Made by a program: the position numbers and the translations under genes. A model generated the notes under the pieces. It worked only from the letters and a program-made list of their open reading frames with translations. It did not search any database and was not told the DNA's origin. From Actinomycetes bacterium (GTDB lineage: Bacteria; Actinomycetota; Actinomycetes; Actinomycetales; Microbacteriaceae), in NCBI GenBank assembly GCA_029779645.1, contig JAKPAC010000041.1, forward strand, positions 115,995-179,994: a stretch of DNA of 64,000 bases, in the 5' to 3' direction. Position 1 is the first letter of the stretch. Each line of letters begins with the position of its first letter. Below, in pieces: positions 34,987 to 63,284 of this stretch.

Positions 34987-35015
34987 ATTTTTCGTGAGAA
35001 TTCCGCCATCCTGTG

Positions 35016-35023: not shown

Positions 35024-35080
35024 GCAGGCGGGGATGGACCCGCGCGCATGGGGGAATCGTGTGCACCGGTCCGGATTTTG

Positions 35081-35139: not shown

Positions 35140-35156
35140 AAACCTGGGGACATCAC

Positions 35157-40772: not shown

Positions 40773-40841
40773 CCGCTGAATTGCTGTGGCTGCGGAGTAC
40801 GATGACTGCTGCATGCCTTGGCGCGATTGAATGAGGAATCC

Positions 40842-41894: not shown

Positions 41895-41902
41895 GGGAAA
41901 AG

Positions 41903-44031: not shown

Positions 44032-44032
44032 C

Positions 44033-44656
44033 GTGAACGGTGTGCTCCTGATCGGCGCGAGCGGTCTGGCGAGGGAAGTGCTCGCCGCGGGCATCGAGGG
44101 CGCCGTCGGCATCCTCGATGACGACGAGTCCAGGCACGGCCAGATCATCGGCGGAGTCCCGGTGCTCGGGGCGGTCGCCTCGGCAGCGGCGCGGGCGGAA
44201 GACCTGCTGATCACGATCGGCCCGAGCGGCGCGCGGCGCAAGGTCGTCGCGATGCTTGCTGCGCTTGGCGTCGCCGACGAGCGGTTCGCCACCTTTGTCA
44301 GCACCGGGGTCCGCCTCGGTGCGACGAGCGTCGTGGGTCGGGGATCCGTGATTCTCGACGGCACAGTGATCACGGCCGATGCGGCGATCGGACGCCACGT
44401 TGTGGTGATGCCCAACTGCACGATCACACACGACGATGTCATCGCCGACTTCGCGACCCTCGCGGCTGGAGTCAGCCTCGGCGGCACGGTGCGGGTCGGC
44501 GAGGCCGCCTACATCGGAATGAACGCCTCGGTGCGCCAGCAGCTGAGCATCGGCCCGAATGCCACAGTGGGAATGGGGTCCGTCGTGCTTGGCGACGTTC
44601 CGGCCTCACAGACATGGGCCGGTGTGCCCGCACGAGAATTGGGAGTACAAGCGTGA
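44033..44656 (+). CDS. PglD/NeuD-like sugar O/N-acyltransferase
   Basis: 207 aa from the GTG at 44033, which gives the usual N-terminus MNGVLLIGASGLAREVL; a GTG at 44021 is possible. The N-terminal small Rossmann-like domain (GILDDDESRHGQIIGGVPVLG) is followed by a left-handed beta-helix (VILDGTVITADAAIGRHVVVMPNCTITHDDVIADFATLAAGVSLGGTVRVGEAAYIGMNASV), ending VLGDVPASQTWAGVPAREL. This is the PglD layout; the His in TITHDD is the expected base. Likely acetylates the amino group made by the preceding aminotransferase. Confidence 0.9.
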   Translation: MNGVLLIGASGLAREVLAAGIEGAVGILDDDESRHGQIIGGVPVLGAVASAAARAEDLLITIGPSGARRKVVAMLAALGVADERFATFVSTGVRLGATSVVGRGSVILDGTVITADAAIGRHVVVMPNCTITHDDVIADFATLAAGVSLGGTVRVGEAAYIGMNASVRQQLSIGPNATVGMGSVVLGDVPASQTWAGVPARELGVQA

Positions 44657-45771
44657 CCCAGCAGGTGCCATTTCTTGACCTGGCAGCACAGTCGGCGGAG
44701 ATCGCCGAGGAAGTGCTGCCGACCTGGCGCGTGCAGTTCGAATCTGCGAACTTCGTGGGCGGCCCTGAGGTCGCAGCCTTTGAGCGGGAGTTCGCCGACT
44801 ACATCGGCGTCGACCATGTCATCGGCGTGTCGAACGGCACTGACGCGCTGGAGCTCGCCTTCCGCGCAACCGGTGTCGAGGCGGGCGACGAGGTCATCAT
44901 GCCCGCGAACACGTTCATCGCGACCGCCGAGGCAGTCTCGCGCATCGGCGCGGTGCCCGTATTCGTCGATGTCGACAGCGACTGCCTGCTGATCGACGCC
45001 GGCGCCGTGGAGGCGGCAGTCACCGAACGCACCCGCGCAATCGCGCCCGTGCACCTGTATGGGCAGACGGCGGCCGTTGAGTCGCTCGCACCGATCGCCG
45101 ACAAGCACGGGCTGGTCATCATCGAGGATGCGGCCCAGTCCCAGGGCGCGTCGTCGCACGCTGGGCGGGCTGGCGCACTGGGCCGAGTCGCCGCAACCAG
45201 CTTCTACCCGGGCAAGAATCTCGGCGCGGCCGGCGACGCCGGTGCCGTGCTCACCGACGATGCCGCCATCGCCGCCGTCGTGCGAAACATGGCCGCTCAC
45301 GGCAGCAGCGTCAAGTACGTGCACGACCGCATCGGCATGAATGCGCGGCTCGACGCGGTCCAGGCCACGGTGCTCCGTGCCAAGCTGCGTCGACTCGAGG
45401 GCTGGAACTCGGCGCGCCGCGCGGCAGCGGTGCGGTACGGGATGCTCCTCGGCGACATCGACGGTGTGGAGACGCCGCGCACGCGGGAGGGCAACATCGA
45501 CGTCTGGCACCTGTACGTAGTGCAGCTCGATGAGCGGGACCGGGTCGCCGAGGCGCTCACCGCCGCCGGCATCGGTGTCGGCATTCACTACCCGACCCCG
45601 GTGCACCTGACCGCGGCATACGCGGGCCTCGGGTACCGCGAGGGGCAGTTCCCCGTGGCGGAGGCCGCCGCAGCCCGGATCTTGTCGCTGCCGATGTTCC
45701 CGCACCTCACCGAAGAGCAGCAGGTGCTCGTCGCAGACGCGCTGCGTCAAGCAGTCGGCCATGGCGGATGA
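44653..45771 (+). CDS. DegT/DnrJ/EryC1/StrS aminotransferase (second copy)
   Basis: 372 aa; the GTG overlaps the previous stop (GTGA). It is the more canonical of the two copies: VPFLDLAAQ, FVGGPEVAAFEREFADYIGVDHVIGVSNGTDALELA, PANTFIATAEAVSRIGAVPVFVDVD, IAPVHLYGQTA, IIEDAAQSQGA, and SFYPGKNLGAAGDAGAV with the PLP Lys. It resembles WlbC/WbpE and QdtB/FdtB-type 3-aminotransferases. Together with the Gfo/Idh dehydrogenase and the WlbB/WbpD-like acetyltransferase it could complete a 2,3-diamino-uronate branch. Confidence 0.92.
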   Translation: MTQQVPFLDLAAQSAEIAEEVLPTWRVQFESANFVGGPEVAAFEREFADYIGVDHVIGVSNGTDALELAFRATGVEAGDEVIMPANTFIATAEAVSRIGAVPVFVDVDSDCLLIDAGAVEAAVTERTRAIAPVHLYGQTAAVESLAPIADKHGLVIIEDAAQSQGASSHAGRAGALGRVAATSFYPGKNLGAAGDAGAVLTDDAAIAAVVRNMAAHGSSVKYVHDRIGMNARLDAVQATVLRAKLRRLEGWNSARRAAAVRYGMLLGDIDGVETPRTREGNIDVWHLYVVQLDERDRVAEALTAAGIGVGIHYPTPVHLTAAYAGLGYREGQFPVAEAAAARILSLPMFPHLTEEQQVLVADALRQAVGHGG

Positions 45772-47221
45772 GGTAGGTCAGCCGGATTCCGTCGCGCGGA
45801 AGGCGAGCCGAGCGTTTGGATGGAGCTTCGGCAACACCCTCGCTTCTCGGCTGGGCACGCTGGCGATCGGCGTCGCGCTTGCGCGCATCCTCGGCCCCGA
45901 CGAGTTCGGAGTCTTCGCGATCGCCACGGTGACGCTGCTCGCGATCCTGAGCTTCAATGAGCTCGGCGTGAGCCTTGCCGTCATCCGGTGGCGCGAGGAT
46001 CCGGCGAAGATCGCTCCCACGATCAACACGGTCTCGGTCGTGAGCAGCGCGGTGCTGATGTCGGCGCTCATCATCGCGGCGCCATGGCTGGCCACGGCGC
46101 TTGGCGATGTCGAGGCCACGCCCGTCGTCCAGGTGATGGCCGTGTCTGTCTTGATCAACGGACTGGTCGCGACGCCGGCTGCCATTCTCCAGCGCGAGTT
46201 CATGCAGAAGGAACGCACGATCGCCGATCAGGTGAACACCTGGCTGGGCGCGGGCCTGTCGATCGTCCTCGCGCTGTTTGGCTGGGGCGCCATGAGCCTC
46301 GCGGTCGGGCGGGTCGTCGCGAGCATCGTCTTCGCGATCCTCCTGTGGCGCTGGTCGCCGGTGCCGTATCGTTTCGGCTGGGATCGGACGCTGATCGGCA
46401 GGCTGATGAGGTTCGGGCTGCCCCTGGCGGCGTCGAGCGTGGTCCTGTTCGCCGCGAGCTACGCCGACCAGATCATCATCGGCGCGACGCTTGGCGCACA
46501 GGCGCTCGGTTTCTATGTGCTCGCCTTCAACCTCGCGAGCTGGCCGTTGACGATCTTCTCGATGCCGTTGCGTGCGGTCGCGCCGGCGGCGTTCTCAGCG
46601 ATCAAGCATGACTCACCGCGGATGTCGCGCAACTATGCCCGCATCTTCGCCCTGCTCATGAGCGTCGCGTTGCCGGCCTGTCTCGCGATCAGCGGCGCGT
46701 CCGACCCGGTGATCCGGTTCGTCTATGGGGCCGCGTGGTCGGATTCCGGGCCCATCCTCATGTGGCTGGCCCTGCTCATCGCCTTCAAGATCGGCTTCGA
46801 GCTCGCGTACGACTACCTGGTCGTGCTCGGGAAGTCGGGCTGGATCTTCGCCACGCAGGCGGTCTCGCTGGTCACCGCTGTGCCCGCGATGCTGCTCGCG
46901 GCAAGCCCGTTCGGGGCACCAGGCGTGGCGGCTGCCCAGGTTGCCGTGGCGGCGGTCATCCTGATGCCGATCTATGCGGCACAGCTCCATCGGATGGGCG
47001 TGCGTGTGGCGACCTCCGTTCGCGCCGTGCTGCTGCCGACCTGCGTCGGCATCGTCGTCTGGGTTGCGAGCAGGCTTTTCGCTGAGAGCGTGCCGATTGC
47101 GTTCGTCGCGGCTGCGCTGGCCGCGCTTGTGTCTGTGCTGGGAATCGCCGTGGCGGTCTATCCTCGCCGCGACACGGTCCGGCTATTTCGTTCGTCGATG
47201 TCGGGAGGCGGCGCGTCATGA
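45761..47221 (+). CDS. Wzx-like polysaccharide flippase (MOP superfamily)
   Basis: 486 aa with about 12-14 hydrophobic helices. It starts within the previous gene (11-base overlap). N-terminal FGWSFGNTLASRLGTLAIGVALARILGPDEFGVFAIATVTLL is the usual flippase entry; YADQIIIGATLGAQALGFYVLAFNLASWPLTIFSMPLRAV is the RfbX/Wzx middle. It moves the undecaprenyl-PP-linked repeat unit to the outer face. The presence of Wzx and a Wzy-like protein points to a Wzx/Wzy-dependent polymer. Confidence 0.9.
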   Translation: MADEVGQPDSVARKASRAFGWSFGNTLASRLGTLAIGVALARILGPDEFGVFAIATVTLLAILSFNELGVSLAVIRWREDPAKIAPTINTVSVVSSAVLMSALIIAAPWLATALGDVEATPVVQVMAVSVLINGLVATPAAILQREFMQKERTIADQVNTWLGAGLSIVLALFGWGAMSLAVGRVVASIVFAILLWRWSPVPYRFGWDRTLIGRLMRFGLPLAASSVVLFAASYADQIIIGATLGAQALGFYVLAFNLASWPLTIFSMPLRAVAPAAFSAIKHDSPRMSRNYARIFALLMSVALPACLAISGASDPVIRFVYGAAWSDSGPILMWLALLIAFKIGFELAYDYLVVLGKSGWIFATQAVSLVTAVPAMLLAASPFGAPGVAAAQVAVAAVILMPIYAAQLHRMGVRVATSVRAVLLPTCVGIVVWVASRLFAESVPIAFVAAALAALVSVLGIAVAVYPRRDTVRLFRSSMSGGGAS

Positions 47222-49608
47222 GAATTCTGGTGTACCCGCACGACCTGAACATGGGCGGCAGTCAGATGAATGCCATCGAGCTCGCCGCCGCCGTCACCGC
47301 GCTCGGGCACGAGTGCATCATCTTCGGGCGTCGGGGCACGCTCTGCGAGCGAATCGAAGAGCTCGGCCTTGAGTTCGTCGAATCCCCGGATCCCGGTCGA
47401 ACCCCGTCGATGGCGGTCGCGCGTGCGATTCGCGAGCTGATCCGAGAGCGTGGCATCGACATCGTGCACGGCTACGAGTGGCCGCCGGGGATGGAAGGCG
47501 CATGGGCCGTGCGCGGCACGTCGGCGGCCGCGGTGTGTACCGTCATGTCGATGGCGGTTGCGGACTTTCTCCCGCGCGCGCTGCCGCTCACCGTGGGCAC
47601 ACAGCAGATCTCTGCACACGAGCAGGCGAAGGGCCGCGAGCGCGTGATCCTGCTCGAGCCTCCGGTCGACATCGCGCACAACCACGAGCCATCCGCGATC
47701 GAGCTGCGCGCGTTCCGCGAGCGGTGGAGCCTCGACGGGAGCCCGCTGCTGGTCTGCGTCGGCCGGCTCGCAACCGAGCTCAAGTCCGAGGGGCTGCTGA
47801 CCGCTATCGAGGTAGTGGGCAAGATCGCGCAGCAGCATCCGATGCAGTTCCTGATCGTGGGAGACGGGGCCGCTCGTCCCGCCATCGAGCGGGCGGCCGC
47901 AGCGGTCAACACGGCGACCGGGACCAACACGATCGTGCTGACGGGCCAGCTGGACGACCCGCGCGCGGCATATGCGGTTGCCGACATATCGCTGGCCATG
48001 GGCGGTTCAGCGCTGCGCTCCCTTGCGTACGGCAAGCCGCTGATCGTGCAGGGAGAGCAGGGGTTCTTCGTCACGGTCACTCCGGAAACCGTGGATCTCT
48101 TCCGCTGGCAGGGCTGGTACGGCATCGGCGCGGGGGCCGAGCTCGGACCCGCGGCCCTCACCGCGGAGCTCCTGCCGCTCGTGCGCGATCCGCTGCTTCG
48201 GGACGAGCTTGGCGGGTTTGCTCGGCACATCGTCGGTGAGTACTCCCTCGCGGCGGCAGCCGGCCGCGTCGTGGGCGTGTACAGCGATGCGCTGCAGGCG
48301 AAGACGGAACGCGAGATACCGTGGGCGGATTGGGTGCGCTCGGCGCGTCAGTTCCTCAGCTACTTCGTGCGACGTCGGCTCGCGCGAGCCCTGGGGAGGC
48401 ACCGGGCAGATGACTTCAACGCGGTCCCGGTGGCCGCGCAGGGACTGCGCACCGAGCCCACGCACGACGCCGGTCGAGCGGGCACCGGCATCGTCTACTT
48501 CGCGGGTGTCCGCTGGGATGACGTGGTGGGGTCTGACCGGCAGCTCGTGGCCGAGCTTGCGAAGCTCACGGATGTCGTGTGGGTCGACCCGATCCGGTCG
48601 GTGCTCCGCCATCGTCGTTCGCCGGCGGTGGAAGTGAGCGAACCCGCCGCGGGGGTGACGCGCGTCGCCGTCAGCGGCCCTCCAGGGGCGAGCCGGCCGG
48701 TGCTCCGGGCGGTTGCGGTCCGCGTCCATGCGCGCGCGGTGCAGCGCTTTCTTCGCGACCACGGCACGCCGATGCGCGCCGTGGTCGCCTCCACCCCCGC
48801 GCCGATCCTGCCCCGGCTGCGCGGCCTGTCGGCGATGAAGGCGTATTTCGCGACCGATGACTTCGTGGAAGCGGCCCGGCTCTGGGGGGTATCGCCCCGC
48901 TATCTCTCGGCGGCGCGCGAGAAGAACCTGGCCGCCGCTGATCTGGTGCTGGCGGTGACGCCGGAGCTCGCCCGCCAGCTGCAGCGTGGCGCCTCGATGC
49001 CGAAGCTGTTCCCCAACGGGGCAGACCTGGAGCGATACGCCCGGATCGACGACGTTCCGGTCGCCGACGGCATCGCGCTCGTGCACCCGCGTGCCGGCGT
49101 CGTCGGTCAGTTCAATGAGCGCACTGACGTCGCGCTGCTGCGCAGCCTCCCGCTTGCCGGCATTCCACTGCTCCTGGTCGGTCCCGCGAGCTTCCGCTCC
49201 GAGCGGCTGCGCCGCGACTTCCACGCGCTGACAGCGATGTCCGGGGTGCAGTGGGTCGGTGGAGTGCCGCGCGAACAGGTGGCGAGCTACCTTCGGGCGA
49301 TCGATGTCGGGGTGACCCCGTACGCTGACACGGCATTCAACCGGCGAAGTTACCCGTTGAAGACGGTCGAGTATCTTGCCGCCGGCGTGCCCGTTGTATC
49401 CTCGACGGCGCCGCCACTCGAGGATTTCGACCCCGATTTCGTCGTCGGCGCGGAATCCGGAGATGCCCTCGTCGCCGGAGTGGAGCACTTCTTCGCGGAG
49501 CGCCCGCGAGCGGAGGAGGTCCGTCGGTCGGTGGCAGACAAGAGCTGGTCGCACCGAGCGGCGGCGTTGTGGGAGATGCTTGGAGGAGTCATCAGTGAGG
49601 AGAGGTGA
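47218..49608 (+). CDS. Tandem glycosyltransferase: two GT-B enzymes in one chain
   Basis: 796 aa; overlaps the flippase stop by ATGA. Residues ~1-375 are one GT4-like unit (MRILVYPHDLNMGGSQMNAIELA, LLVCVGRLATELKSEGL, FLIVGDGAARPAIERA). Residues ~420-796 are a second GT-B unit (GIVYFAGVRWDDVVGSDRQLVAELAKLTDVVWVDP, LFPNGADLERYARI, GQFNERTDVALLRSLP, RRSYPLKTVEYLAAGVPVVSS). The second unit looks like the GT family that follows a WDxxxSRxQ-type start. A basic linker of ~40 residues separates them. The two transferases probably add consecutive sugars. Confidence 0.88.
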   Translation: MRILVYPHDLNMGGSQMNAIELAAAVTALGHECIIFGRRGTLCERIEELGLEFVESPDPGRTPSMAVARAIRELIRERGIDIVHGYEWPPGMEGAWAVRGTSAAAVCTVMSMAVADFLPRALPLTVGTQQISAHEQAKGRERVILLEPPVDIAHNHEPSAIELRAFRERWSLDGSPLLVCVGRLATELKSEGLLTAIEVVGKIAQQHPMQFLIVGDGAARPAIERAAAAVNTATGTNTIVLTGQLDDPRAAYAVADISLAMGGSALRSLAYGKPLIVQGEQGFFVTVTPETVDLFRWQGWYGIGAGAELGPAALTAELLPLVRDPLLRDELGGFARHIVGEYSLAAAAGRVVGVYSDALQAKTEREIPWADWVRSARQFLSYFVRRRLARALGRHRADDFNAVPVAAQGLRTEPTHDAGRAGTGIVYFAGVRWDDVVGSDRQLVAELAKLTDVVWVDPIRSVLRHRRSPAVEVSEPAAGVTRVAVSGPPGASRPVLRAVAVRVHARAVQRFLRDHGTPMRAVVASTPAPILPRLRGLSAMKAYFATDDFVEAARLWGVSPRYLSAAREKNLAAADLVLAVTPELARQLQRGASMPKLFPNGADLERYARIDDVPVADGIALVHPRAGVVGQFNERTDVALLRSLPLAGIPLLLVGPASFRSERLRRDFHALTAMSGVQWVGGVPREQVASYLRAIDVGVTPYADTAFNRRSYPLKTVEYLAAGVPVVSSTAPPLEDFDPDFVVGAESGDALVAGVEHFFAERPRAEEVRRSVADKSWSHRAAALWEMLGGVISEER

Positions 49609-49612
49609 AGGT

Positions 49613-50932
49613 ATGTCGCCGCACGTCCTGATCATCGTGCAGAATCTTCCGGTGCCGCTGGATCGAAGAGTGTGGCTGGAGTGCCAGGCGCTGATTGCGC
49701 GCGGCTACCGCGTGAGCGTCATCTGCCCGAAGGGGCCGGGCGATCCCGCGCGTCAGCTCATCGACGGCGTCTACATCTACAAGTACAAGCCGGCACCTGA
49801 GGCGAGAGGTATTCTTGGCTTCATCTGGGAGTTCGCGTACAGCTGGGTGCGCACCGCATGGCTGTCTCTGGCCGTGCGCCGTCGCGCGCGCTTCGACATC
49901 ATGCAGGCATGCAACCCGCCCGACATCTACTGGCTGCTGGCACTGCTGTGGCGGCCCTGGGGCGTGAAGTTCATCTTCGACCACCACGACCTCAATCCCG
50001 AGCTGTTCATCTCCCGCTTCGGTAGTCCGACGAGCATCGGCCAGAAGGTGCAGTACAAGGGGCTGCGATGGCTGGAGCGGCGCACGTTCCGTGCGGCGCA
50101 CAAGATCACGTCGACAAACGAGTCATACAAGGCGGTCGCGGTCCGTCGCGGCGATCGCCGACCGGAGGATGTGACCGTCGTGCGAAGCGGCCCCGACACC
50201 CAGCAGATGCGGCCGATCTATCCCGCCGCGCCACGACCCGTCGATGGCATCAATCTCGCCTACCTGGGGATCATGGGACCGCAGGATGGCGTGGATCAGG
50301 CGCTGCTGGTCATCGACGAGCTCGTCAACAAGCGCGGGCGCACGCAGATCACGGCCACCATGCTCGGCTTCGGCGACTGCCTCGAAGCGCTCAAGCAGCA
50401 GTCGAGCGAGCTCGGACTGGACGCATACGTGACATTCACCGGCCGCGTCGACCGTGTCGAGATCGCGGAGTATCTGAGTCGCGCCGATATCGGGCTCTGC
50501 CCGGATCTGAAGACGCCGCTGAACGACCTGTCGACGATGAACAAGACGATGGAGTACATGTCATACGGCCTCCCCGCAGTCTCGTTCGATCTCGCCGAGA
50601 CGCGGGTATCGGGTGCTGACACCGTGCAGTACGTGCCGTCCGGCGACATCGGCGCGTTCGCGGACGCCGTCGAGAAGCTGATCGACGACAGCGACCTTCG
50701 CATCACGCTGGGCAAGAAGGCCCGTGCGCGCGTCGCGACGGAGCTGGACTGGCGCCCGCAGGCCGAGGCGTATGTCGCGGTGTTCGACGAGCTCTCCGGG
50801 TTTTCCAAGCCCGGACCTGCGGTTCCGCCGTCCGACGCGACCCCCTTGAAGGATCCGCAGGGTCGCACCTATGTCGATCTCGACGACGCGCACGAGTTCG
50901 AGCGCTACCTTCGTGAGCGGAGGGCGCCGTGA
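49613..50932 (+). CDS. Glycosyltransferase family 4
   Basis: 439 aa; the ATG at 49613 is just after the previous stop, with GAGGTGAAGG upstream. N-terminal acceptor domain begins HVLIIVQNLPVPLDRRVWLECQALIARGYRVSVICPKG, followed by IFDHHDLNPELFISRFG. C-terminal donor domain has NLAYLGIMGPQDGVDQAL, ATMLGFGDCLEALKQQS, VTFTGRVDRVEIAEYLSRADIGLCPD and NKTMEYMSYGLPAVSFDLAETR. This resembles retaining GT4 enzymes of exopolysaccharide loci. A C-terminal extension (KDPQGRTYVDLDDAHEFERYL) follows the fold. Confidence 0.92.
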   Translation: MSPHVLIIVQNLPVPLDRRVWLECQALIARGYRVSVICPKGPGDPARQLIDGVYIYKYKPAPEARGILGFIWEFAYSWVRTAWLSLAVRRRARFDIMQACNPPDIYWLLALLWRPWGVKFIFDHHDLNPELFISRFGSPTSIGQKVQYKGLRWLERRTFRAAHKITSTNESYKAVAVRRGDRRPEDVTVVRSGPDTQQMRPIYPAAPRPVDGINLAYLGIMGPQDGVDQALLVIDELVNKRGRTQITATMLGFGDCLEALKQQSSELGLDAYVTFTGRVDRVEIAEYLSRADIGLCPDLKTPLNDLSTMNKTMEYMSYGLPAVSFDLAETRVSGADTVQYVPSGDIGAFADAVEKLIDDSDLRITLGKKARARVATELDWRPQAEAYVAVFDELSGFSKPGPAVPPSDATPLKDPQGRTYVDLDDAHEFERYLRERRAP

Positions 50933-52500
50933 CCCGCACCCGCACGAATATGCACCACCTGTTGAGCCATATGGCGGCTGCGACGCCGGATGCTCCCGCC
51001 CTGAGCTATCGCAACGTGACGGTGAGCTATGCCGACACGTGGCGGCAGACGCAGCAGGTTGCGACGCAGCTGCTCGAGATCGGTCTGCAGCGCGAGGATC
51101 GCGTCGCGATCTATCTCGAGAAGCGGCACGAGACGGTCGCGGCGATCTTCGCGGCCTCGGCGGCCGGCGGGGTGTTCGTGCCGATCAACCACGTGCTCAA
51201 GCCAGTGCAGGTCGGGCACATTCTCGTAGACAGCGGGGCGCGAGTGCTGGTGACGTCGGCTGATCGACTGCGCCAGCTCGCGGCCGTGCTGGGCGACACG
51301 GAGGTGTCGGAGGTCATCGTCGTAGGCGCAGCGGCCGCGCCGATCGACGGGCGCCGCCTGCACGCCTGGCCCGCAGTCGACGCGTCCATGTCCGTCGCCG
51401 AGCTGCCCGCCCCTGAGCCGATCGACGGCGACCCTGCCGCGATTCTGTACACCTCCGGCAGCACCGGTAAGCCGAAGGGGGTCGTGCTCAGCCATCGAAA
51501 TCTGATCGTCGGCGCCGAGAGCGTCAGCTCCTATCTGGGCAATACCCCGGACGACGTGATCCTCAGCGTGCTGCCGCTCAGCTTCGACGCCGGCCTCAGT
51601 CAGGTGACCACCGCGTTCGCGGTTGGCGCCCACTGCGTGCTGATGAACTATCTGCTGCCGCGGGAGGTGCCGAAGCTGTGCGCCCAGTACGGTGTGACAG
51701 GGCTCACCTGCGTGCCTCCCTTGTGGCTTCAGCTTGCGGAGCTCGAGTGGCCCGACGACGCCGCACGGGGCCTGCGCTATTGGGCGAACACCGGTGGTCG
51801 GATGCCGCGAAAGACGCTCGATCGTCTGCGCGAGGTCTTTCCGCTCGCGCGTCCCTACCTGATGTACGGGCTCACCGAAGCGTTTCGGTCCACATTCCTC
51901 GACCCCGCCGAGGTCGACCGCCGCCCGGATTCGATCGGCAAGGCGATTCCGAACGCCGAGATTCTCGTGCTTCGGCCGGACGGCACGCGCTGCGATCCCG
52001 GCGAGGAGGGCGAGCTCGTTCACCGGGGTCCGCTCGTCGCGCTTGGCTACTGGAACGATCCGCTCCGCACCGCGGAGCGCTACCGACCGCTTGCGCGGCC
52101 GGCGCAGGCATGGCGCGCGCCGGAGCTGGCCGTGTGGTCGGGCGACACGGTCGTCGCCGACGATGACGGATTCCTCTATTTCGTGGGCCGCAGCGACGAC
52201 ATGATCAAGACGTCGGGCTACCGCGTGAGCCCGACGGAGATCGAGGAAGCCGCCTACAGCACGGGAATGGTCGGCGATGCCGTGGCGGTGGGTGTCGCAG
52301 ACGATGTCCTTGGTCAGCGCATCGTCCTGAGCGCGACCGTCGCCCGCCCCGACATCGACGGCGCCGAGATCATCGCCGCGCTGCGGCAGGTGCTCCCCAT
52401 GTACATGGTGCCAGCGCGCATTGAGATTCGAGGCGAGCTCCCTCGCTCGCCCAACGGCAAGTTCGACCGCAATCTGATCAAAGCCGAGGTGTCCGCATGA
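50929..52500 (+). CDS. Acyl-CoA/acyl-carrier ligase (AMP-forming), exosortase-A-associated type
   Basis: 523 aa; GTGA overlap with the preceding glycosyltransferase. ANL-superfamily motifs: AILYTSGSTGKPKGVVLSHRNL (A3), YGLTEAFRSTFLDP (A5), WSGDTVVADDDGFLYFVGRSDDMIKTSGYRVSPTEIEE (A7-A8), and LPRSPNGKFDRN (A10, catalytic Lys). The YGLTEAFRST segment strongly recalls the AMP-forming ligase of exosortase-A loci (TIGR03098 type, recognised from memory). It activates a carboxylate as its adenylate and probably loads it on the ACP encoded two genes on. The substrate is not known; the next gene suggests an amino acid. Confidence 0.9.
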   Translation: MTRTRTNMHHLLSHMAAATPDAPALSYRNVTVSYADTWRQTQQVATQLLEIGLQREDRVAIYLEKRHETVAAIFAASAAGGVFVPINHVLKPVQVGHILVDSGARVLVTSADRLRQLAAVLGDTEVSEVIVVGAAAAPIDGRRLHAWPAVDASMSVAELPAPEPIDGDPAAILYTSGSTGKPKGVVLSHRNLIVGAESVSSYLGNTPDDVILSVLPLSFDAGLSQVTTAFAVGAHCVLMNYLLPREVPKLCAQYGVTGLTCVPPLWLQLAELEWPDDAARGLRYWANTGGRMPRKTLDRLREVFPLARPYLMYGLTEAFRSTFLDPAEVDRRPDSIGKAIPNAEILVLRPDGTRCDPGEEGELVHRGPLVALGYWNDPLRTAERYRPLARPAQAWRAPELAVWSGDTVVADDDGFLYFVGRSDDMIKTSGYRVSPTEIEEAAYSTGMVGDAVAVGVADDVLGQRIVLSATVARPDIDGAEIIAALRQVLPMYMVPARIEIRGELPRSPNGKFDRNLIKAEVSA

Positions 52501-53726
52501 AACCGCACGAGCATACCGCCCAATTCGGCACCGTCGACGGTGAGCTGCGCATCGGCGAGATGCCGCTGAGCCGGCTCGCGGCGCGAGTGGGATCGACACC
52601 CTTCTTCGCCTACGATCGAGCTCACCTGGACGCGCGCATCGATCGGCTGCGATCGACGCTGCCCTCGCGCATCGAGCTCAGCTACGCGATGAAGGCGAAT
52701 CCGATGCCGGCTGTCGTGCAGCACCTCGCGCGGCGGCTGGATCGTATCGATGTCGCCTCCGGGCTGGAGATGCTCACGGCCCTCGACACCACCATGCCCG
52801 CGGCTCGTGTGAGTTTCGCGGGCCCCGGAAAGGCGCCAGCCGAGATTCGGCAGGCGGTTGCGGCGGGCATCATCGTCGAGGTGGAGTCGACGACAGAGCT
52901 TCGCCGGGTGATCGCGGCCGGCGACGAGCTGGGTGTCACGCCACAGGTCGCAATCCGAGTCAACCCCGACTTCGCGGTGAAGGGGTCGGGGATGCGCATG
53001 GGCGGCGGTCCCCAGCAGTTCGGAATCGACGCAGAGACCGTGCCCGACGTGCTTCGCGAGTTCGGCGGGTCTGGCCTGGATGTGCTCGGGTTCCACGTGT
53101 TCGCCGGGTCGCAGAACCTCAACGCCGAGATCATCGCCGAGGCGCAGCGACGCACCGTCGAGCTGATCGGCGATCTCGCGGAGCACCTGCCCACCGAGCT
53201 GCGGTATGTCAACATCGGCGGCGGATTCGGCATCCCCTACACCGAGCGCGATCGCCCCCTCGACCTCGACGCGGTCGGTGCGAGCCTGCACGAACTCGTT
53301 GGGGGCCCAATCGCCGAGCGCATTCCGAGCGAGGCGAGCGTCGTGATCGAGCTGGGCCGCTACCTCGTCGGAGAGAGCGGCGTCTATGTCACGAAGGTGC
53401 TTGATCGGAAGGTGTCGCGAGGTACGACATACCTCGTGGTCGACGGTGGCATGCACCACCAGCTCGCGGCCTCGGGCAACTTCGGCCAGGCGATCCGCCG
53501 AAACTATCCGCTGATCGTCGGGAATCGAGCTGACGCGGCCTCCGACGAGGGTGTGACCGTCGTAGGATGCCTTTGCACGCCGCTTGACCTTCTTGGGGAT
53601 GCCGTCGAGCTGCCGGCAGCCGAGATCGATGATCTGATCGTCATCTTCCAGGCGGGCGCGTACGGGCTTACAGCAAGCCCCACGGCGTTCCTGGGCCACC
53701 CGGCCCCGACCGAAGTGCTCGTCTGA
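52497..53726 (+). CDS. Type III PLP-dependent decarboxylase, exosortase-A-associated / BtrK-like
   Basis: 409 aa; ATGA overlap with the ligase. Alanine-racemase-fold barrel: FFAYDRAHLDARIDRL, IELSYAMKANPMPAVVQHLARRLDRIDVASGLEM (PLP Lys in AMKAN), SFAGPGKAPAEI, AIRVNPDFAVKGSGMRMGGGPQQFG, LGFHVFAGSQNLN, VNIGGGFGIPY, ELGRYLVGESGVYVTKV, VVDGGMHHQLAASGNFGQAIRRNYP, and GCLCTPLDLLGD with the conserved Cys. The segments match the PLP decarboxylase of exosortase-A loci (TIGR03099 type, from memory), related to diaminopimelate/ornithine decarboxylases and to BtrK, which decarboxylates an ACP-bound glutamyl group in butirosin biosynthesis. ACP-bound substrate here is inferred. Confidence 0.9.
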   Translation: MKPHEHTAQFGTVDGELRIGEMPLSRLAARVGSTPFFAYDRAHLDARIDRLRSTLPSRIELSYAMKANPMPAVVQHLARRLDRIDVASGLEMLTALDTTMPAARVSFAGPGKAPAEIRQAVAAGIIVEVESTTELRRVIAAGDELGVTPQVAIRVNPDFAVKGSGMRMGGGPQQFGIDAETVPDVLREFGGSGLDVLGFHVFAGSQNLNAEIIAEAQRRTVELIGDLAEHLPTELRYVNIGGGFGIPYTERDRPLDLDAVGASLHELVGGPIAERIPSEASVVIELGRYLVGESGVYVTKVLDRKVSRGTTYLVVDGGMHHQLAASGNFGQAIRRNYPLIVGNRADAASDEGVTVVGCLCTPLDLLGDAVELPAAEIDDLIVIFQAGAYGLTASPTAFLGHPAPTEVLV

Positions 53727-53739
53727 AACTGGAGACCAC

Positions 53740-53997
53740 ATGACCCACACCATCGACGCGGTTCGCGCCGTCCTGATCGAGGCGCTCGAGCTGCAGCAGG
53801 CCCCCGAAGAGCTGCAGGCCGAGACGGAGCTGTTCGGCTCGTTGCCCGAGCTTGACTCGTTCGGCGTCGTCGCGCTCGTGGGCGCGCTCGAAGACCGATT
53901 CGAGATCACGATCGATGACGACGAGTTCGGCGCCGAGCTGTTTGAGACCGTGGGCAGTCTGACCGACTTCGTCGCGGCGAAGCTCGCGACGGCGTAG
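53740..53997 (+). CDS. Acyl carrier protein
   Basis: 85 aa, acidic, with GGAG ribosome-binding site and a 13-base gap after the decarboxylase. The phosphopantetheine site is ELDSFGVVALV, where Ser follows Asp and the usual Leu is Phe. The four-helix ACP pattern is clear (AVRAVLIEALEL, VVALVGALEDRFEITI, SLTDFVAAKL). Ligase, decarboxylase and carrier end the 11-gene operon, so they should be made together. The likely role is to carry the activated amino acid during decarboxylation and transfer. Confidence 0.92.
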   Translation: MTHTIDAVRAVLIEALELQQAPEELQAETELFGSLPELDSFGVVALVGALEDRFEITIDDDEFGAELFETVGSLTDFVAAKLATA

Positions 53998-54012: not shown

Positions 54013-54879
54013 CTACCAGCGCACGAGCGCGAGCTCGCTGTACAGGTAGTCGACATTCTGCGGGTCCAGGTGGGTTCCGCGGTACATCTTGGGCCTCGGG
54101 TTCGCGAGCAGTCTTCCTGGCGACGTCGGGAGGAAGCCCAGGATGCGTCGCTCCGCGAGGGTCGCGAGCAGCCCGCGTGAGAGCAGCCACGCCGACACCT
54201 GAGGCCATGCTCGTCGCAGCAGCTCGCGGTCGCCGCCGACGAAGAGCGGCGACGCGAACACCGGCACCCGCTTGCGGCGATCTCGTCGGAAGATGAGGTA
54301 GGCGTACCTCTCACCACCGCGCACCAGCAGGTGGTGGGCGGCCGCCGCGGCACGGTGATCTCGATATGCGACGGCGTCCTCGCCATGAAGCGACGCTTCG
54401 AGCTCGTGGGGGTTCGACGTCACCGTCACGCCGCGCCGAGGGAGCGCGGGAAGGTTGATCGTGAGTCTGGTGCTCGTGTCGAGGCGCTTGAACCCGAGCC
54501 GCTCATTCATGGCGATCACGTTCCCGCTCGGGGAGAGATCGGTGAACTCGACGCCGTCCTGCTTGAGGAGCGCGCGCACGAGACGAAGGCCGTGCATGCG
54601 ATGCGGCTCCAGCACGCAGAACGCGGCGAGGTTGCAGACCGTGACCGTCGCCTGCCCGATGGTGCGCTCCGCATAGACCGCTGCGTACACGCCGACAAGC
54701 GCATCGCCGGAGAACAGCTGAAAGCCGTGGTTGGGCCCGACCGACTTCCAAGGTGGTGCGAGCAGCGCCGACCACGCCGAGGCTGACACGCGAGAGTTCA
54801 GATGCTGGTGCAGAAAGCGCGCGACTGCCGCAACGTCAGCGGATGCGATCGGTCGCACCGTCATCTTCTCTGCGGCCAC
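54013..54879 (-). CDS. GNAT-family acyltransferase, candidate transferase for the ACP cassette
   Basis: 288 aa from the GTG at 54879 (TAGCCT seven bases before it); the ATG at 54864 is the alternative. N-terminal GNAT region: MTVRPIASADVAAVARFLHQHLNSRVSASAWSALL, then VGVYAAVYAERTIGQATVTVCNLAAFCVLEPHRMHGLRLVRALLKQDGVEFTDLSPSGNVIAMNERLGFKRL. The C-terminal half (~150-288) is a second, weaker GNAT-like module. It converges on the ACP gene with only 15 bases between stops. Coding strand and convergent placement do not prove a link, but acyl transfer to the polymer is a reasonable hypothesis. Confidence 0.75.
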   Translation of the reverse strand: MAAEKMTVRPIASADVAAVARFLHQHLNSRVSASAWSALLAPPWKSVGPNHGFQLFSGDALVGVYAAVYAERTIGQATVTVCNLAAFCVLEPHRMHGLRLVRALLKQDGVEFTDLSPSGNVIAMNERLGFKRLDTSTRLTINLPALPRRGVTVTSNPHELEASLHGEDAVAYRDHRAAAAAHHLLVRGGERYAYLIFRRDRRKRVPVFASPLFVGGDRELLRRAWPQVSAWLLSRGLLATLAERRILGFLPTSPGRLLANPRPKMYRGTHLDPQNVDYLYSELALVRW

Positions 54880-54886
54880 AGGCCCA

Positions 54887-54892
54887 AGGCTA
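54887..54892 (-). promoter_or_regulatory. Possible -10 box of the GNAT gene
   Basis: TAGCCT, seven bases before GTG 54879. It overlaps the TAG stop of the upstream Wzz-like gene, so the match may be fortuitous. Confidence 0.3.
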
Positions 54893-55558
54893 ATGCATGC
54901 CTGCGAACTCGGGATCGAGGAGCATGTTTCGTCGAGATCGGTACTCGAGCGCCACGACGGTCGCGAGCGTGATCCCGCCGCCAAGCGCCGCGATCATCCC
55001 CAGCGCGCGCACTCGATTGCCCCGCACGTGATAGATCACCGGGGGCTCCGGCGCGACCGTGAACGTGATGTCGTTGACCGGGTCGACGAACTGCTCGCGC
55101 TGCATGGCATTGAGCTCGAACCGAGCGCGAGCGACGACATCATCCTGGATCTGCTGAACTTCTTCTGGCGAGTCGCCGACGACCTCGAGAATGAGGAACT
55201 GGTCGGCAAAGTTCGGCGACCACTGCCCGCCGGTGTCGGGGAGTCGGAGCCAGAACGGCGACCCGGTGTCGGGGATGCCGATGATGGTGGCATCCGTCGA
55301 CGAGTACTTCTCCACTGCCGCGGGACCGTTGACACGCTTGGCGACGAGCCCGGCCGTGATGATCAGGTCCTCGGAGCGGGTTTTGAGCGAGTTCGGGTAC
55401 ATCTTGCTCGAAGGGGCGAGGAACACGAGGTTGGTGCGCGACCAGTACACCCCGTCCGCACGCACCGCGACGAACCCGACCGCTGCGGTGCACAGCGCCC
55501 CGACGAGCAGGATCGGCCATCGACGCACAAGTGCGCGAAGCAGATGCCGAAACGACAT
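54890..55558 (-). CDS. Wzz-like chain-length/transport membrane protein (minus strand)
   Basis: 222 aa from the ATG at 55558, with GGAGGAA upstream. TM1 near the N-terminus (RRWPILLVGALCTAAVGFVAV), a ~150-residue external domain with a Wzz-like strand (YWSRTNLVFLAPSSKMYPNSLKT), and TM2 near the C-terminus (ALGMIAALGGGITLATVVALEY). This two-helix polysaccharide co-polymerase topology lacks a tyrosine-kinase domain. It is upstream of the GNAT gene (10-base gap) and divergent from a second Wzz-like gene. Confidence 0.75.
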   Translation of the reverse strand: MSFRHLLRALVRRWPILLVGALCTAAVGFVAVRADGVYWSRTNLVFLAPSSKMYPNSLKTRSEDLIITAGLVAKRVNGPAAVEKYSSTDATIIGIPDTGSPFWLRLPDTGGQWSPNFADQFLILEVVGDSPEEVQQIQDDVVARARFELNAMQREQFVDPVNDITFTVAPEPPVIYHVRGNRVRALGMIAALGGGITLATVVALEYRSRRNMLLDPEFAGMH

Positions 55559-55743
55559 GCCGTTCCTCCAACCCGCGCAGTGTGGCGCCCCGATGTTCGA
55601 GCGTATCGCGATCATGACGCGGCGCCGGTCGAAGCGGCGGGTTCCCGGTCGTTGCTGGCTCAATGGTCAGTAACGTCCCAGGGGAATCGCGCGCCGCACT
55701 TGCTAGAGTGAGCGACGGCAAGGATCAAGGGTGGGGGCTCTGC

Positions 55744-56502
55744 ATGGCGATGTCTGGAGTGTTTGGCACGCTTCGTCGTCGCTGGTATCTCGTGCTGGCC
55801 GGTCTCCTTCTCACGGCGGGACTCACCGCTGGTGCCGCGGTGCTCTTCCAGCCGAGCTACACCGCGCGGGGACTCGTGCTGCTGATCCCGCCTGTGGACG
55901 CCGAGACGGCTACGGGCAGCAACCCATTCCTCGGCTTGGGTGGGCTGGACCTTCCCGCCCGCGTGCTCGTCGCTTCGTACTCCAGCAACGCGGCCCAGCA
56001 GGACATCGCGAAGCGAGCGCCGGACGCAGAGGTGACCGTTTCGATGGAGGAGTCGACACGCGGACCAGTCATCGCCGTCGATGTGAAGGACAGCAGCGCG
56101 AAGGGCGCGCTGGGCCTGCTCGACTATGTCTCGAGCTCCATCCCGGAGACGCTGCAGCGGCTCCAGTCCGAGGTCGGCGCGCCCCCGTCGACCACGGTCA
56201 CGTCGATCCCCCTCACCATGGACACAGAAGCCGAGGTCGATCGAAGCGATTCGATGCGGATGATCATCCTCGCAGCCGGCGCTGGAGTGGGGCTCACCGT
56301 GCTGATGATCTTCGTCGTCGAGAGTCTCGGGACGCGGCCCGCGCTTCGTCGTCGTGGCGCTCCGACGGAGCCGCTGATGCCTGCCGCAGGCAGCGGCCCC
56401 GAGCTGGAAGTGCTCCCGCTCCTTCGCGCGGCGCCGGCCGACCCGCGTCCGGCGGCGCGGACGACGACTCCGGGCGCCGCGGGGGGCGCGTTCGATGACT
56501 AG
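55744..56502 (+). CDS. Wzz-like membrane protein (plus strand)
   Basis: 252 aa from the ATG at 55744; an ATG at 55750 is also possible. TM1 RRWYLVLAGLLLTAGLTAGAAVLF, an external domain with SYTARGLVLLIPPVDAETA and SNAAQQDIAKRAPDAEVTVSMEE, TM2 MIILAAGAGVGLTVLMIFVVESL, and a Pro/Ala/Arg-rich cytoplasmic tail. Same topology as the protein encoded divergently at 54890-55558, but little sequence similarity by eye. It starts the second polymer operon. A TAGAGT -10-like box lies ~40 bases upstream. Confidence 0.75.
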   Translation: MAMSGVFGTLRRRWYLVLAGLLLTAGLTAGAAVLFQPSYTARGLVLLIPPVDAETATGSNPFLGLGGLDLPARVLVASYSSNAAQQDIAKRAPDAEVTVSMEESTRGPVIAVDVKDSSAKGALGLLDYVSSSIPETLQRLQSEVGAPPSTTVTSIPLTMDTEAEVDRSDSMRMIILAAGAGVGLTVLMIFVVESLGTRPALRRRGAPTEPLMPAAGSGPELEVLPLLRAAPADPRPAARTTTPGAAGGAFDD

Positions 56503-56529: not shown

Positions 56530-57894
56530 ATGTCGAACGTCTCGCGGGAGCCTGTGCACACGCCGGTCGGCGTCGTCGGGCCCGCCATCCTGCCGACTCG
56601 ATTCGGTTCGGGTCGCGTGAGCCGGGGGCCCGGGGCAGACGCCGTGACCTGGCTCACGCTGTACATCGTCGTGCTGTTTGCGATTCCTTCGCGGCTGATT
56701 CTGGGCCCGCTCGGCAGCGCGGGCGCGCCCTCGATGCTGCTCGGCCTGGCGAGCCTCGCGTTCTGGCTGTCGTTCATTCTGACCAACGCCGTGAGCCGCC
56801 CGTTCACCGTGACCTACCCGCTGAAGTGGGCGATTGCGGTCTTCGTGGTGTGTGTGGGCGTCTCGTACGCGATCACGATGTCGCAGCCGATCAGCCCGGA
56901 TGAGGTCAGTCCGGCGGATGTCGCGCTGCTCTCGCTCGGCTCGTGGATCGGCACCATGCTCCTTGCCCACGATGCGATCCGAACCAGATCGCGCCTGGAA
57001 GACCTGTCCTGGCGGTTCGCGCTCGCCGGTGGCTTCATGGCGCTCCTCGGGCTGGCACAGTTCGTCACCAAGCTCTCGATCGTCAATCTCATCTCGATTC
57101 CCGGGCTGACGGCGGTGGCCGAAGCGGCGGTCTACGAGCGGAACGGGCTGGTGCGGCCGGCTGGGACGGCGATTCACCCCATCGAATACGGCACGCTCCT
57201 GACGATCATCCTCCCGATCGCGTTGCACGTGGCGTTGCGCCGTCGCGACATCGCGCTGCCCCTGCGCTGGTTCCCTGCGGTCGCTATCCTCGCGGTCGTC
57301 GCCATCTCGTCGTCTCGATCGGCCTACCTCGGAGCGGTGATCGGCGTCGCCGTGTGTGTGGTGGCCTGGGCTCCCAAGGTCCGCCGCATCGTCGCGATCG
57401 TGGCCGTTGCAGGCACCGTGGTCGTCGCAGCCGCGGTCCCGCGGCTGTTCAACTCGATCATCGGATTGTTCGCCGGCGTGGAAAGCGATCCGAGCATCTC
57501 GTCGCGCACCGACAGCTTCAGCTTCGCGTGGCGATTCATCGTCGACAGCCCGTTCTTCGGGCGCGGGCTGGGCACATTCCTGCCCAAGTATCGAATCTTC
57601 GACAACGAGTATCTCGGGATGCTGGTCACCATCGGATTCGTCGGGACCGCAGCGTTCGTGTGCATCGGCATCGTCGCCGTCGCTCAGCTCCTGCGCGTCT
57701 ACGGGGCGGCGACCGACGACGGGACCAAGGACTTTTCGGTGTCGCTCATCGGTTCGATCGCCGCAGGCTTTGCCAGCCTCGCGTTCTTCGATGCGTTCGC
57801 ATTCCCGATGACGATGGGGACGCTGTTTCTCGCGATCGGCATCGCAGGGGCACTCGTCCGCTTGGAAAGCGTGGCCCGGCGACCGCTCCAATAA
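56530..57894 (+). CDS. O-antigen ligase / Wzy-type polymerase membrane protein
   Basis: 454 aa with about 11 hydrophobic helices. The large external loop between late helices has the WzyC-like pattern SSRTDSFSFAWRFIVDSPFFGRGLGTFLPKYRIFDNEYLGMLVTIG, including Arg and His residues in GLVRPAGTAIHPIEYGT on the preceding loop. It either polymerises repeat units or ligates the polymer to an acceptor; the two activities cannot be told apart by sequence. It follows the Wzz-like gene by 27 bases. Confidence 0.87.
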   Translation: MSNVSREPVHTPVGVVGPAILPTRFGSGRVSRGPGADAVTWLTLYIVVLFAIPSRLILGPLGSAGAPSMLLGLASLAFWLSFILTNAVSRPFTVTYPLKWAIAVFVVCVGVSYAITMSQPISPDEVSPADVALLSLGSWIGTMLLAHDAIRTRSRLEDLSWRFALAGGFMALLGLAQFVTKLSIVNLISIPGLTAVAEAAVYERNGLVRPAGTAIHPIEYGTLLTIILPIALHVALRRRDIALPLRWFPAVAILAVVAISSSRSAYLGAVIGVAVCVVAWAPKVRRIVAIVAVAGTVVVAAAVPRLFNSIIGLFAGVESDPSISSRTDSFSFAWRFIVDSPFFGRGLGTFLPKYRIFDNEYLGMLVTIGFVGTAAFVCIGIVAVAQLLRVYGAATDDGTKDFSVSLIGSIAAGFASLAFFDAFAFPMTMGTLFLAIGIAGALVRLESVARRPLQ

Positions 57895-57963: not shown

Positions 57964-58806
57964 ATGCCGAGCGTAGTGATCGCTGCCCACAATGAGGAGT
58001 CCGTGATCGGAGCCTGTCTGCGGGCGCTGTATCGCGCCGACCCGGCGGCGCAGGTGATCGTCAGCGCCAACGGCTGCAGCGATCGCACTGCGGCGATCGC
58101 GACGGATGCCGGTGTGCTGGTCGTGGATCGCGCTGAGCCGGGCAAAGCGGGGGCGCTGAATGCTGCCGAGGTGATTGCGAGCGTGTTTCCGCGGATCTAT
58201 CTTGATGCCGACATCGTCGTGCCGCCCGATGGGATCTCCGGCATCACCGAGGCGTTCGGGCCCGGAATTCTGGCTGTCGTGCCACGGCGCCGCATCGATA
58301 CGCAGGGTCGCCCTTGGCCGGTTCGGGGGTATTTCGCGATCAACGAGCGGCTGCCCGCATTTCGCCGCGGGCTGTTCGGGCGCGGCATGATCGCGGTGTC
58401 GGAGGAGGGTCGCGCGCGTTTCGACTCCTTTCCCGACATGGTTGCCGACGATCTGTTCCTGGATTCGCAGTTCGGTGACGACGAGAAGGCGATCGCGCAC
58501 GGCGTGGAGGTCGTCATCGCCGCGCCGCATACGACCGGAGACCTGATCCGCCGTCTTGTGCGGGTGCGCCGCGGCAACGCGGAGATGCGTGCTGCGGCCG
58601 CTCGGGGTGAACTTCCGATCAGCGTGCGCCAGGCGGATCGCTGGGCGTGGCTGCGCGACGTCGTGATCCCGAATCCTTCGCTCGCGCTCGCCGCGGTTCC
58701 ATTTCTCGCGATCACGGTCATCGCGGCGCGTCGCGCGCGGCGGGCGCCCGCGCCAGGTGCGGAGTGGGGCCGGGACGAGAGCACGAGGGAGTCGACGCGA
58801 GCATGA
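57964..58806 (+). CDS. Glycosyltransferase family 2 with C-terminal membrane helix
   Basis: 280 aa from the ATG at 57964 with AGGA upstream; the ORF-track TTG is less likely. GT2 start: PSVVIAAHNEESVIGACLRALYRADPAAQVIVSANGCSDRTAAIA. Metal/donor site in RIYLDADIVVPPDG (DAD for DxD). Later MIAVSEEGRARFDSFPDMVADDLFLDSQF carries the expected acidic pair (ADD). A hydrophobic segment LALAAVPFLAITVIAA lies near the C-terminus, anchoring it to the membrane. It overlaps the next gene by ATGA. Confidence 0.85.
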   Translation: MPSVVIAAHNEESVIGACLRALYRADPAAQVIVSANGCSDRTAAIATDAGVLVVDRAEPGKAGALNAAEVIASVFPRIYLDADIVVPPDGISGITEAFGPGILAVVPRRRIDTQGRPWPVRGYFAINERLPAFRRGLFGRGMIAVSEEGRARFDSFPDMVADDLFLDSQFGDDEKAIAHGVEVVIAAPHTTGDLIRRLVRVRRGNAEMRAAAARGELPISVRQADRWAWLRDVVIPNPSLALAAVPFLAITVIAARRARRAPAPGAEWGRDESTRESTRA

Positions 58807-59450
58807 TCAATCTCTGTTTTCACGGTGTCGGAGTGTGCGCCATCGAGCGGGAGCCTGGCGAGGCGTCGTACTGGGTGACACGCGAGCTCTTTCTGCAGGT
58901 GCTTGATGCGGTGGCGGGGCGTGGGGACGTACGCCTGAGCTTCGACGACGGCAACCGCTCCGACATCGAGACGGCTCTGCCGGCGCTCGTCGAGCGAGGA
59001 CTTCGCGCAGACTTCTTCGCGCTCGCCGGCAGGCTGGACGATCCCGCCAGCCTCGGACCCGCCGAGCTGCGCGAGCTCCGGGCTGCCGGGATGAACCTTG
59101 GCAGCCATGGCTGGGACCACGTTCCCTGGCGCGGGCTGGACGCTCGCGAGCGGGAGCGTGAATTCGTCGAGGCGCGGATCGCGCTTTCGGAGGCGAGCGA
59201 AGGTGTGATCGACACTGCGGCCTTCCCGCTCGGGCGCTACGACCGTGCTGCGCTGCGCGGGCTGAAGGCTGCCGGCTACCGGACGGTGTTCACCAGCGAC
59301 CGGTTTCGGGCGCGTCCGGGCGCGTGGCTCCAGGCGAGGTACAGCATCACCGCCGGCGACACGATCGCGTCGGTTCGGCAGATCCTCGCACACGCGGGCG
59401 TCGCGGAGGCGAGGGCTCGGATGGTGAGTGTGGTGAAGCAGTTGCGCTGA
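58803..59450 (+). CDS. Polysaccharide deacetylase family protein (NodB fold)
   Basis: 215 aa, ATGA overlap with the upstream GT2. Motif 1 is LSFDDGNRSDIET, a variant of the usual TFDDGP, and motif 2 is NLGSHGWDHVPW (the His pair of the metal site). It has no signal peptide or membrane helix by eye, so it could act on a cytoplasmic lipid-linked precursor. Deacetylation of an N-acetylamino sugar would free amino groups for other substituents. The Gly-to-Asn change after DDG is unusual but does not remove a catalytic residue. Confidence 0.85.
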   Translation: MINLCFHGVGVCAIEREPGEASYWVTRELFLQVLDAVAGRGDVRLSFDDGNRSDIETALPALVERGLRADFFALAGRLDDPASLGPAELRELRAAGMNLGSHGWDHVPWRGLDAREREREFVEARIALSEASEGVIDTAAFPLGRYDRAALRGLKAAGYRTVFTSDRFRARPGAWLQARYSITAGDTIASVRQILAHAGVAEARARMVSVVKQLR

Positions 59451-63128: not shown

Positions 63129-63180
63129 AGAAAAATCCAAACATTTGGGGTTGGGACGCAACAAGTATCAGCTGGCTGCC

Positions 63181-63186
63181 TAGAAT
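63181..63186 (+). promoter_or_regulatory. -10 box of the VanZ-like gene
   Basis: TAGAAT in an AT-richer divergent region between the DUF4082 and VanZ-like genes. It would give a ~90-base leader to the GTG at 63285. Confidence 0.35.
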
Positions 63187-63284
63187 GTTCGGCACGTATG
63201 AGAACATCCTCACTCGAGGGCCATCTTATTCGCAGGGCCAGGTTTCGTCTCGAAGTCGGTGTGCGATCGACGAGGGAGCGCGGC

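Follow-up and report, generated by a model that had tools for sequence, protein, structure and literature searches.

A ligase, decarboxylase and carrier-protein cassette with a linked tandem-GNAT protein in exosortase-free surface polysaccharide loci: a predicted source of omega-aminoacyl groups

The window analysed here is a 64,000-nucleotide stretch of contig JAKPAC010000041.1 from an actinobacterium of the family Microbacteriaceae, and our subject is a trio of genes that ends a long plus-strand run in it. The first gene encodes an adenosine monophosphate (AMP)-forming ligase of family TIGR03098, a predicted aminoacyl-acyl carrier protein (ACP) ligase (50929-52500, 523 amino acids, catalytic K511). 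It is followed by a BtrK-like pyridoxal phosphate decarboxylase of family TIGR03099 with an alanine-racemase fold, predicted to act on an ACP-bound amino acid (52497-53726, 409 amino acids), and by a free-standing acyl/aminoacyl ACP (53740-53997, 85 amino acids). An earlier note on this DNA had described the three genes as overlapping or nearly abutting, and this is what we find: the GTG start of the ligase open reading frame (ORF) overlaps the stop of the upstream gene, the ligase and decarboxylase ORFs overlap by 4 nucleotides, and a gap of 13 nucleotides separates decarboxylase from ACP, so that the three are translationally coupled. Hidden Markov model searches bore out the family identities given in the note, with 716.6 bits for the ligase against TIGR03098 (NCBI cut-off 592.35) and 564.1 bits for the decarboxylase against TIGR03099 (478.45); the ACP scored 33.1 bits against PF00550 (Pfam cut-off 20.8), and its phosphopantetheine serine, S40 in the motif LDSF, is kept in at least 95% of 75 sequences. 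That this is the ACP of fatty-acid synthesis, a possibility raised in the note, is unlikely, because a separate, stronger PP-binding match is encoded elsewhere in the genome. Most likely, the cassette makes a carrier-bound amine building block from an acidic amino acid, and a neighbouring transferase probably attaches this block to a surface polymer.

A fourth, unannotated gene is linked to the trio. It encodes a tandem-GNAT N-acyltransferase-like protein, a predicted aminoacyl transferase, on the minus strand (54013-54864, 283 amino acids, likely ATG start at 54864), and ends 16 nucleotides beyond the ACP gene. The product had no match in Pfam up to E = 1, the GNAT domain included. AlphaFold2, run on 47 sequences, predicted a tandem-GNAT fold with confidence (predicted local distance difference test score 94.3), and Foldseek matched the model to Eis, N-myristoyltransferase and glucosamine N-acetyltransferase (E values of 1e-7 to 1e-5). 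In place of the coenzyme A (CoA)-pyrophosphate motif [RQ]xxGx[GA] these proteins have a sequence of the RxHSLR/RxHGLR type, the last position being R or K, not G/A, in 47 of 47; such a degenerate motif might suit a carrier-protein donor instead of CoA.

To describe related loci, one genome per species was scanned, which gave 471 decarboxylase relatives, and the best 80 loci were analysed; ranking by similarity to the window decarboxylase means that the counts favour close kin, and absence of a gene is judged within about 10 kb. GNAT homologues occur in 62 of the 72 related loci with a full trio. In 30 loci from 18 genera of Actinobacteria and Alphaproteobacteria the gene immediately precedes the ligase in the same orientation (gaps of 9-111 nucleotides); it is convergent after the ACP, as in the window, in 10, and is found elsewhere within about 10 kb in 19; 13 loci were counted as lacking it, three being ORF-calling artefacts and several cut by contig ends. 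No GNAT homologue was found in 16 exosortase-positive trio loci of about 19 kb, and the difference in presence between exosortase-free and exosortase loci gives a Fisher p of about 1e-11 in a test that ignores kinship. The earlier note had called for a transferase without naming one; the linked GNAT, just beyond the genes that it covered, is a candidate for this missing transfer step, and we regard it as the rather probable transferase of the aminoacyl group.

The kinship of the ligase points to its substrate. VinN was the top PDB match for a profile of 18 ligases and the best single-domain PDB match of the window ligase, and VinN together with amino-acid adenylation domains outscored all other PDB entries. 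In VinN, Asp230, Ser299 and Arg331 bind the aspartate substrate, with Ser299 and Arg331 proposed to hold the carboxylate; by alignment, with a chain offset of 16 residues, they correspond to D220, T288 and R320 of the window ligase, which are almost invariant in 95 ligase relatives. All exosortase-locus ligases examined keep this D/T/R set, with S replacing T in most. The ten-position pocket code reads DASLATMRSK in the window, in most Actinobacteria and Rhizobiales and in 4 of 16 exosortase loci, and DYxLTSMRSK, closer to the DFYLTSMRIK of VinN, in the other 12; one-letter variants of both occur. Judged from these residues, the pocket suits an acid activated at its side-chain carboxyl. The substrate of VinN itself, which loads 3-methylaspartate on the ACP VinL before VinO decarboxylates it on the carrier (PMC11284099), is less likely here, since glutamate mutase PF06368 is absent from this genome and gave no match over cut-off in any of 39 genomes. 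Aspartate or glutamate remain, and by analogy with VinN one of these is likely to be loaded on the ACP by its side-chain carboxyl.

The decarboxylase is closest, among solved proteins, to BtrK (250 bits, against 158 for the next best enzyme and 129 for the best typical diaminopimelate (DAP) decarboxylase), and shares with it motifs such as CTPxD and MGGxPxQFG. The analogy with BtrK drawn in the earlier note was thus well chosen. BtrK converts glutamyl-BtrI to γ-aminobutyryl (GABA)-BtrI (PMC7857480), and in the vicenistatin pathway, too, the thioester is formed before decarboxylation (PMC11284099). A BtrK-like decarboxylase and a free-standing ACP here share an operon with the ligase, as in VinN/VinL/VinO-type supply. 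By this analogy we consider it quite probable that the amino acid is decarboxylated while on the carrier. A housekeeping LysA is an unlikely identity for this protein, given that the decarboxylase profile has a second match in this genome and that the BtrK score is far above those of DAP decarboxylases.

The trio is not peculiar to this window. The earlier note had taken it as a signature of exosortase-A (XrtA/PEP-CTERM) polysaccharide loci in Gram-negatives and had seen neither exosortase nor PEP-CTERM tails here. Genome-wide searches upheld the latter point: exosortase PF09721 and FemAB TIGR03019 had no match in the window genome (2.34 Mb, 99.9% complete), and no PEP-CTERM match exceeded the cut-off there; four exosortase control genomes each gave at least 5. 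An exosortase near the trio is thereby rejected, the same search having been positive in ligase-bearing Pseudomonadota: the ligase occurs in 39 of 399 sampled genomes of that group, and a strong exosortase match in 30 of these 39. Trio and exosortase are therefore linked in Gram-negatives, as the note held, but the trio is no signature of exosortase A: it is also widespread in exosortase-free loci, so that a Gram-positive with the trio is a common case. In 50 genomes from those of the best 80 loci the search gave no full-length exosortase; seven of the 50, all actinobacterial (G426, G408, G434, G432, G428, G445 and G423), gave weak partial matches of 21-31 bits, mostly to the C-terminal part of the model. 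From the absence in these relatives and the presence in 30 of 39 Pseudomonadota it follows that the trio has two settings, one with exosortase A and one free of exosortase. Those best 80 loci come from Microbacteriaceae, which supply most of the nearest decarboxylase relatives, and from Jiangella, Micromonosporaceae, Promicromonospora, Nocardioides, mycobacteria, Rhizobiales and others. Most of them have the trio embedded among polysaccharide genes, in Actinobacteria and Rhizobiales alike; the trio thus recurs in exosortase-free surface-polysaccharide loci of many members of both groups. In a decarboxylase tree the exosortase-free actinobacterial and rhizobial sequences form one supported group, the deeper order being unsafe owing to the long branches of BtrK and the DAP decarboxylases.

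Two kinds of outlier were seen among these loci. A 19-kb contig filed under the gammaproteobacterium Stenotrophomonas maltophilia P13 (L051) carries the locus in a gene order like that of Microbacterium, with a decarboxylase that is 79% identical, and is a case of contamination or recent transfer. Six Amycolatopsis loci (L081, L076, L102, L106, L107 and L109) have a decarboxylase 68% identical to the window protein in a different context, without ligase or ACP; in L081 it adjoins a BTAD/NB-ARC regulator.

Other settings of the trio have different partners. In exosortase loci (L141-L160), the ACP is often followed by the hydrolase TIGR03101, with TIGR03100 close by (for example L144, 6939-8925, and L143, 10578-11728); these alpha/beta hydrolases, none of which occurs in GNAT loci, might serve as thioesterases or acyltransferases for the loaded ACP. 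Of 30 exosortase genomes, 28 had a FemAB TIGR03019 match above the cut-off, mostly adjoining the exosortase. A third exosortase-free actinobacterial family, f18, represented by seven wide loci (L161-L168 except L165), has the gene order tandem GNAT, ACP, ligase, decarboxylase. In it the tandem GNAT stands beside the ACP in 7/7 loci, a FemAB gene (PF02388) is present in 4/7 and the lipid II flippase MurJ in 7/7; in L168 the FemAB gene lies between one GNAT neighbour and the ACP. FemAB enzymes attach amino acids to peptidoglycan precursors. The tandem GNAT, the frequent FemAB and the nearby MurJ suggest that the trio serves peptidoglycan-precursor modification in f18, and all three settings pair the trio, or its genomes, with GNAT-fold transferases of an amide-bond-forming kind. 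Seven Pseudomonadota genomes (G483, G589, G595, G621, G711, G717 and G843), mostly with a more distant ligase, had no exosortase match; two such loci that were examined, L157 and L158, also lack the GNAT, so the ligase has further settings. Three Nocardioides loci without GNAT (L098, L101 and L104) encode an asparagine-synthetase-like protein, a relative of which adjoins the trio in some exosortase loci, such as L144. We found nothing in the literature on the function of the trio in exosortase loci, and Haft 2006 is silent on these enzymes.

We propose that the ligase would activate the side-chain carboxyl of aspartate (or glutamate) and load the ACP, and that the BtrK-like decarboxylase would remove the alpha-carboxyl on the carrier to give beta-alanyl-S-ACP (or GABA-S-ACP). 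The tandem GNAT would then move the omega-aminoacyl group from the ACP to an amine of a surface glycan, either on an amino-sugar precursor made by the genes at 40.8-45.8 kb or exposed by the deacetylase, and the polymer would thereby gain a positively charged side group. We infer loading and on-carrier decarboxylation from homologues of known chemistry, and the transfer step, the acceptor and the purpose from gene linkage. The interpretation given in the earlier note is thus upheld in part: its family identities, the exosortase link in Gram-negatives and the analogy with BtrK stand, and its view of the trio as an exosortase-A signature needs to be changed. That the trio supplies an omega-aminoacyl-ACP whose acyl group is then transferred to the glycan is a joint reading that we favour by a modest measure, the steps not being independent of one another; the exact acceptor is less sure, and an amino sugar or deacetylated sugar is a tentative choice, a little short of an even chance.

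Among known systems, VinN/VinL/VinO is alike in its stand-alone adenylating ligase with an Asp/Ser(Thr)/Arg pocket, its free-standing ACP and its PLP decarboxylase for an ACP-bound acid. It differs in feeding a polyketide synthase with methylaspartate from glutamate mutase, whereas here the setting is an envelope polysaccharide and a GNAT is the linked transferase; glutamate mutase is a feature of vicenistatin and not part of aspartate-using relatives such as FlvN. VinM, a second adenylating enzyme, and the acyltransferase VinK were not seen among the scanned locus proteins, at which no search for them was aimed. Exosortase-A loci share the ligase and decarboxylase families and a similar ACP, but the window has a tandem GNAT instead of exosortase, PEP-CTERM and TIGR03019 FemAB, and the hydrolases TIGR03100/03101 were not seen in loci related to it. 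In butirosin biosynthesis, which has the nearest solved relative of the decarboxylase and the same kind of step from glutamyl-ACP to GABA-ACP, the product goes to an aminoglycoside and glutamate is loaded by BtrJ, a non-adenylating ligase of the ATP-grasp type. In the Dlt system an AMP-forming ligase (DltA) activates an amino acid for a carrier protein (DltC) and ultimately an envelope polymer, but this D-alanylation involves no decarboxylase; no MBOAT protein was seen among the proteins scanned here. For bolagladin (BolO/BolC/BolN), a VinN-like ligase is proposed to load the aspartate beta-carboxyl on a free ACP and a BtrK-like enzyme to decarboxylate the bound aspartate, and a bolN deletion was not rescued by beta-alanine feeding (PMC7756342); unlike the present case, the result is a starter unit for a nonribosomal peptide synthetase.

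Several points weigh against supply by the trio and transfer by the GNAT. The window GNAT lies on the strand opposite to the trio, five trio loci (L037, L050, L098, L101 and L104) have no GNAT within about 10 kb, and exosortase loci carry the trio without it. Its structural similarity to known transferases is moderate (template modelling score about 0.55, root-mean-square deviation about 6 Å over the whole protein), and activity is a predicted one for every member of the trio and for the GNAT. In the ligase, T288 takes the place of Ser299 of VinN, and pocket positions 236 and 299 hold a smaller residue (A); the substrate may therefore be something other than aspartate.

With the trio acting as we propose, the GNAT could instead be an ordinary acetyl-CoA-dependent sugar N-acetyltransferase of the same locus, another enzyme, for example of the alpha/beta-hydrolase type, transferring the aminoacyl group. 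Exosortase loci, where TIGR03101/TIGR03100 hydrolases come after the ACP in the absence of a GNAT, fit this view, as do the acetyltransferases among the fold matches; we nevertheless consider it unlikely, because GNAT and ligase are linked as tightly as in an operon in 18 genera, the CoA motif is degenerate, and tandem GNAT or FemAB proteins accompany the trio in other lineages too. Somewhat less likely again is decarboxylation first, in which a free amino acid would become a beta-amino acid such as beta-alanine before the ligase loads it and the GNAT transfers it. There is a precedent in incednine biosynthesis, where IdnL3 decarboxylates free beta-glutamate before loading (PMC11284099), but our ligase retains Thr/Ser and Arg, the proposed binding residues in VinN for the very carboxylate that would already be gone, and the substrate of BtrK, the closest relative of the decarboxylase, is carrier-bound. 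Distinctly improbable is a role in making a free small molecule, whether antibiotic, siderophore or signal, with the trio placed in the polysaccharide locus by chance: the nearest characterised relatives are antibiotic enzymes and in some Amycolatopsis loci the decarboxylase stands without its partners, once beside a regulator, but polysaccharide genes flank the trio in most related loci of both Actinobacteria and Rhizobiales, and exosortase loci are likewise polysaccharide loci. A fatty acyl-CoA/ACP ligase with a lipid-bearing ACP, as the NCBIfam name "acyl-CoA ligase" and generic matches to fatty acyl-CoA ligases would have it, can be set aside as extremely improbable given the invariant amino-binding aspartate, the arginine in the pocket and the best PDB scores of VinN and amino-acid adenylation domains.

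New here are the GNAT as a fourth cassette gene, the residue match of the ligase to VinN and the closeness of the decarboxylase to BtrK. Ligase and decarboxylase are still named "exosortase A system-associated", after a quite different Gram-negative protein-sorting system and with their chemistry unstated, a misleading family name in genome annotation that would be corrected. The VinN match and BtrK kinship lead to a specific test (aspartate or glutamate, ACP, a loss of 44 Da), and such chemistry would hold at the same time for exosortase-A loci and for many surface polymers of exosortase-free loci. Broader, and held as somewhat less likely than not, is a carrier-protein-based, transfer RNA (tRNA)-independent attachment of omega-amino acids to envelope glycans, with one trio and differing GNAT-fold transferases: the 283-amino-acid tandem GNAT in polysaccharide loci of Actinobacteria and Rhizobiales, TIGR03019 FemAB in exosortase-A systems, and tandem GNAT plus FemAB near MurJ in the further actinobacterial family. 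With FemAB and MurJ in its surroundings, it is possible that the trio feeds the modification of peptidoglycan precursors by way of a carrier protein, and if the tRNA-independent route is real, FemAB-type enzymes can use aminoacyl-ACP.

Polysaccharide-type genes span 40.8-63.7 kb of the window around the trio, and the Wzx, Wzy-like, Wzz-like, deacetylase and VanZ-like proteins listed in the earlier note were all found, the Wzz-like matches being weak. Amino-sugar genes at 40818-45771 (+) encode a Gfo/Idh/MocA dehydrogenase, an NAD-dependent epimerase/dehydratase, a PseC-like DegT aminotransferase, an acetyltransferase of the NeuD/PglD/VioB type (43994-44656, +) and a second DegT aminotransferase, and are the likely source of the acceptor amine. 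They are followed on the plus strand by a Wzx-type flippase (45761-47221, PF13440), a glycosyltransferase of two GT4-type halves (47218-49608) and a GT4 glycosyltransferase directly 5′ of the ligase (49610-50932, start approximate). Beyond the GNAT lie a Wzz-like membrane protein with a very weak match (54890-55600, −, start approximate), a Wzz-like chain-length protein with a weak match below the Pfam cut-off (55663-56502, +) and a Wzy-like polymerase or O-antigen ligase (56530-57894, +, PF04932, Wzy_C). The polysaccharide deacetylase (58647-59450, +, PF01522), with homologues in 46 of the 80 related loci, could free an amine; a VanZ domain protein is encoded at 62913-63737. DUF4082 proteins stand on both sides of the polysaccharide genes: one of 1919 amino acids (35013-40772, +) with five DUF4082, four Big_5 and one dimethylformamidase-like domain, parts of which match 43 related loci, and one of 518 amino acids (61608-63164, −). 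Both may be surface proteins with a link to the polymer.

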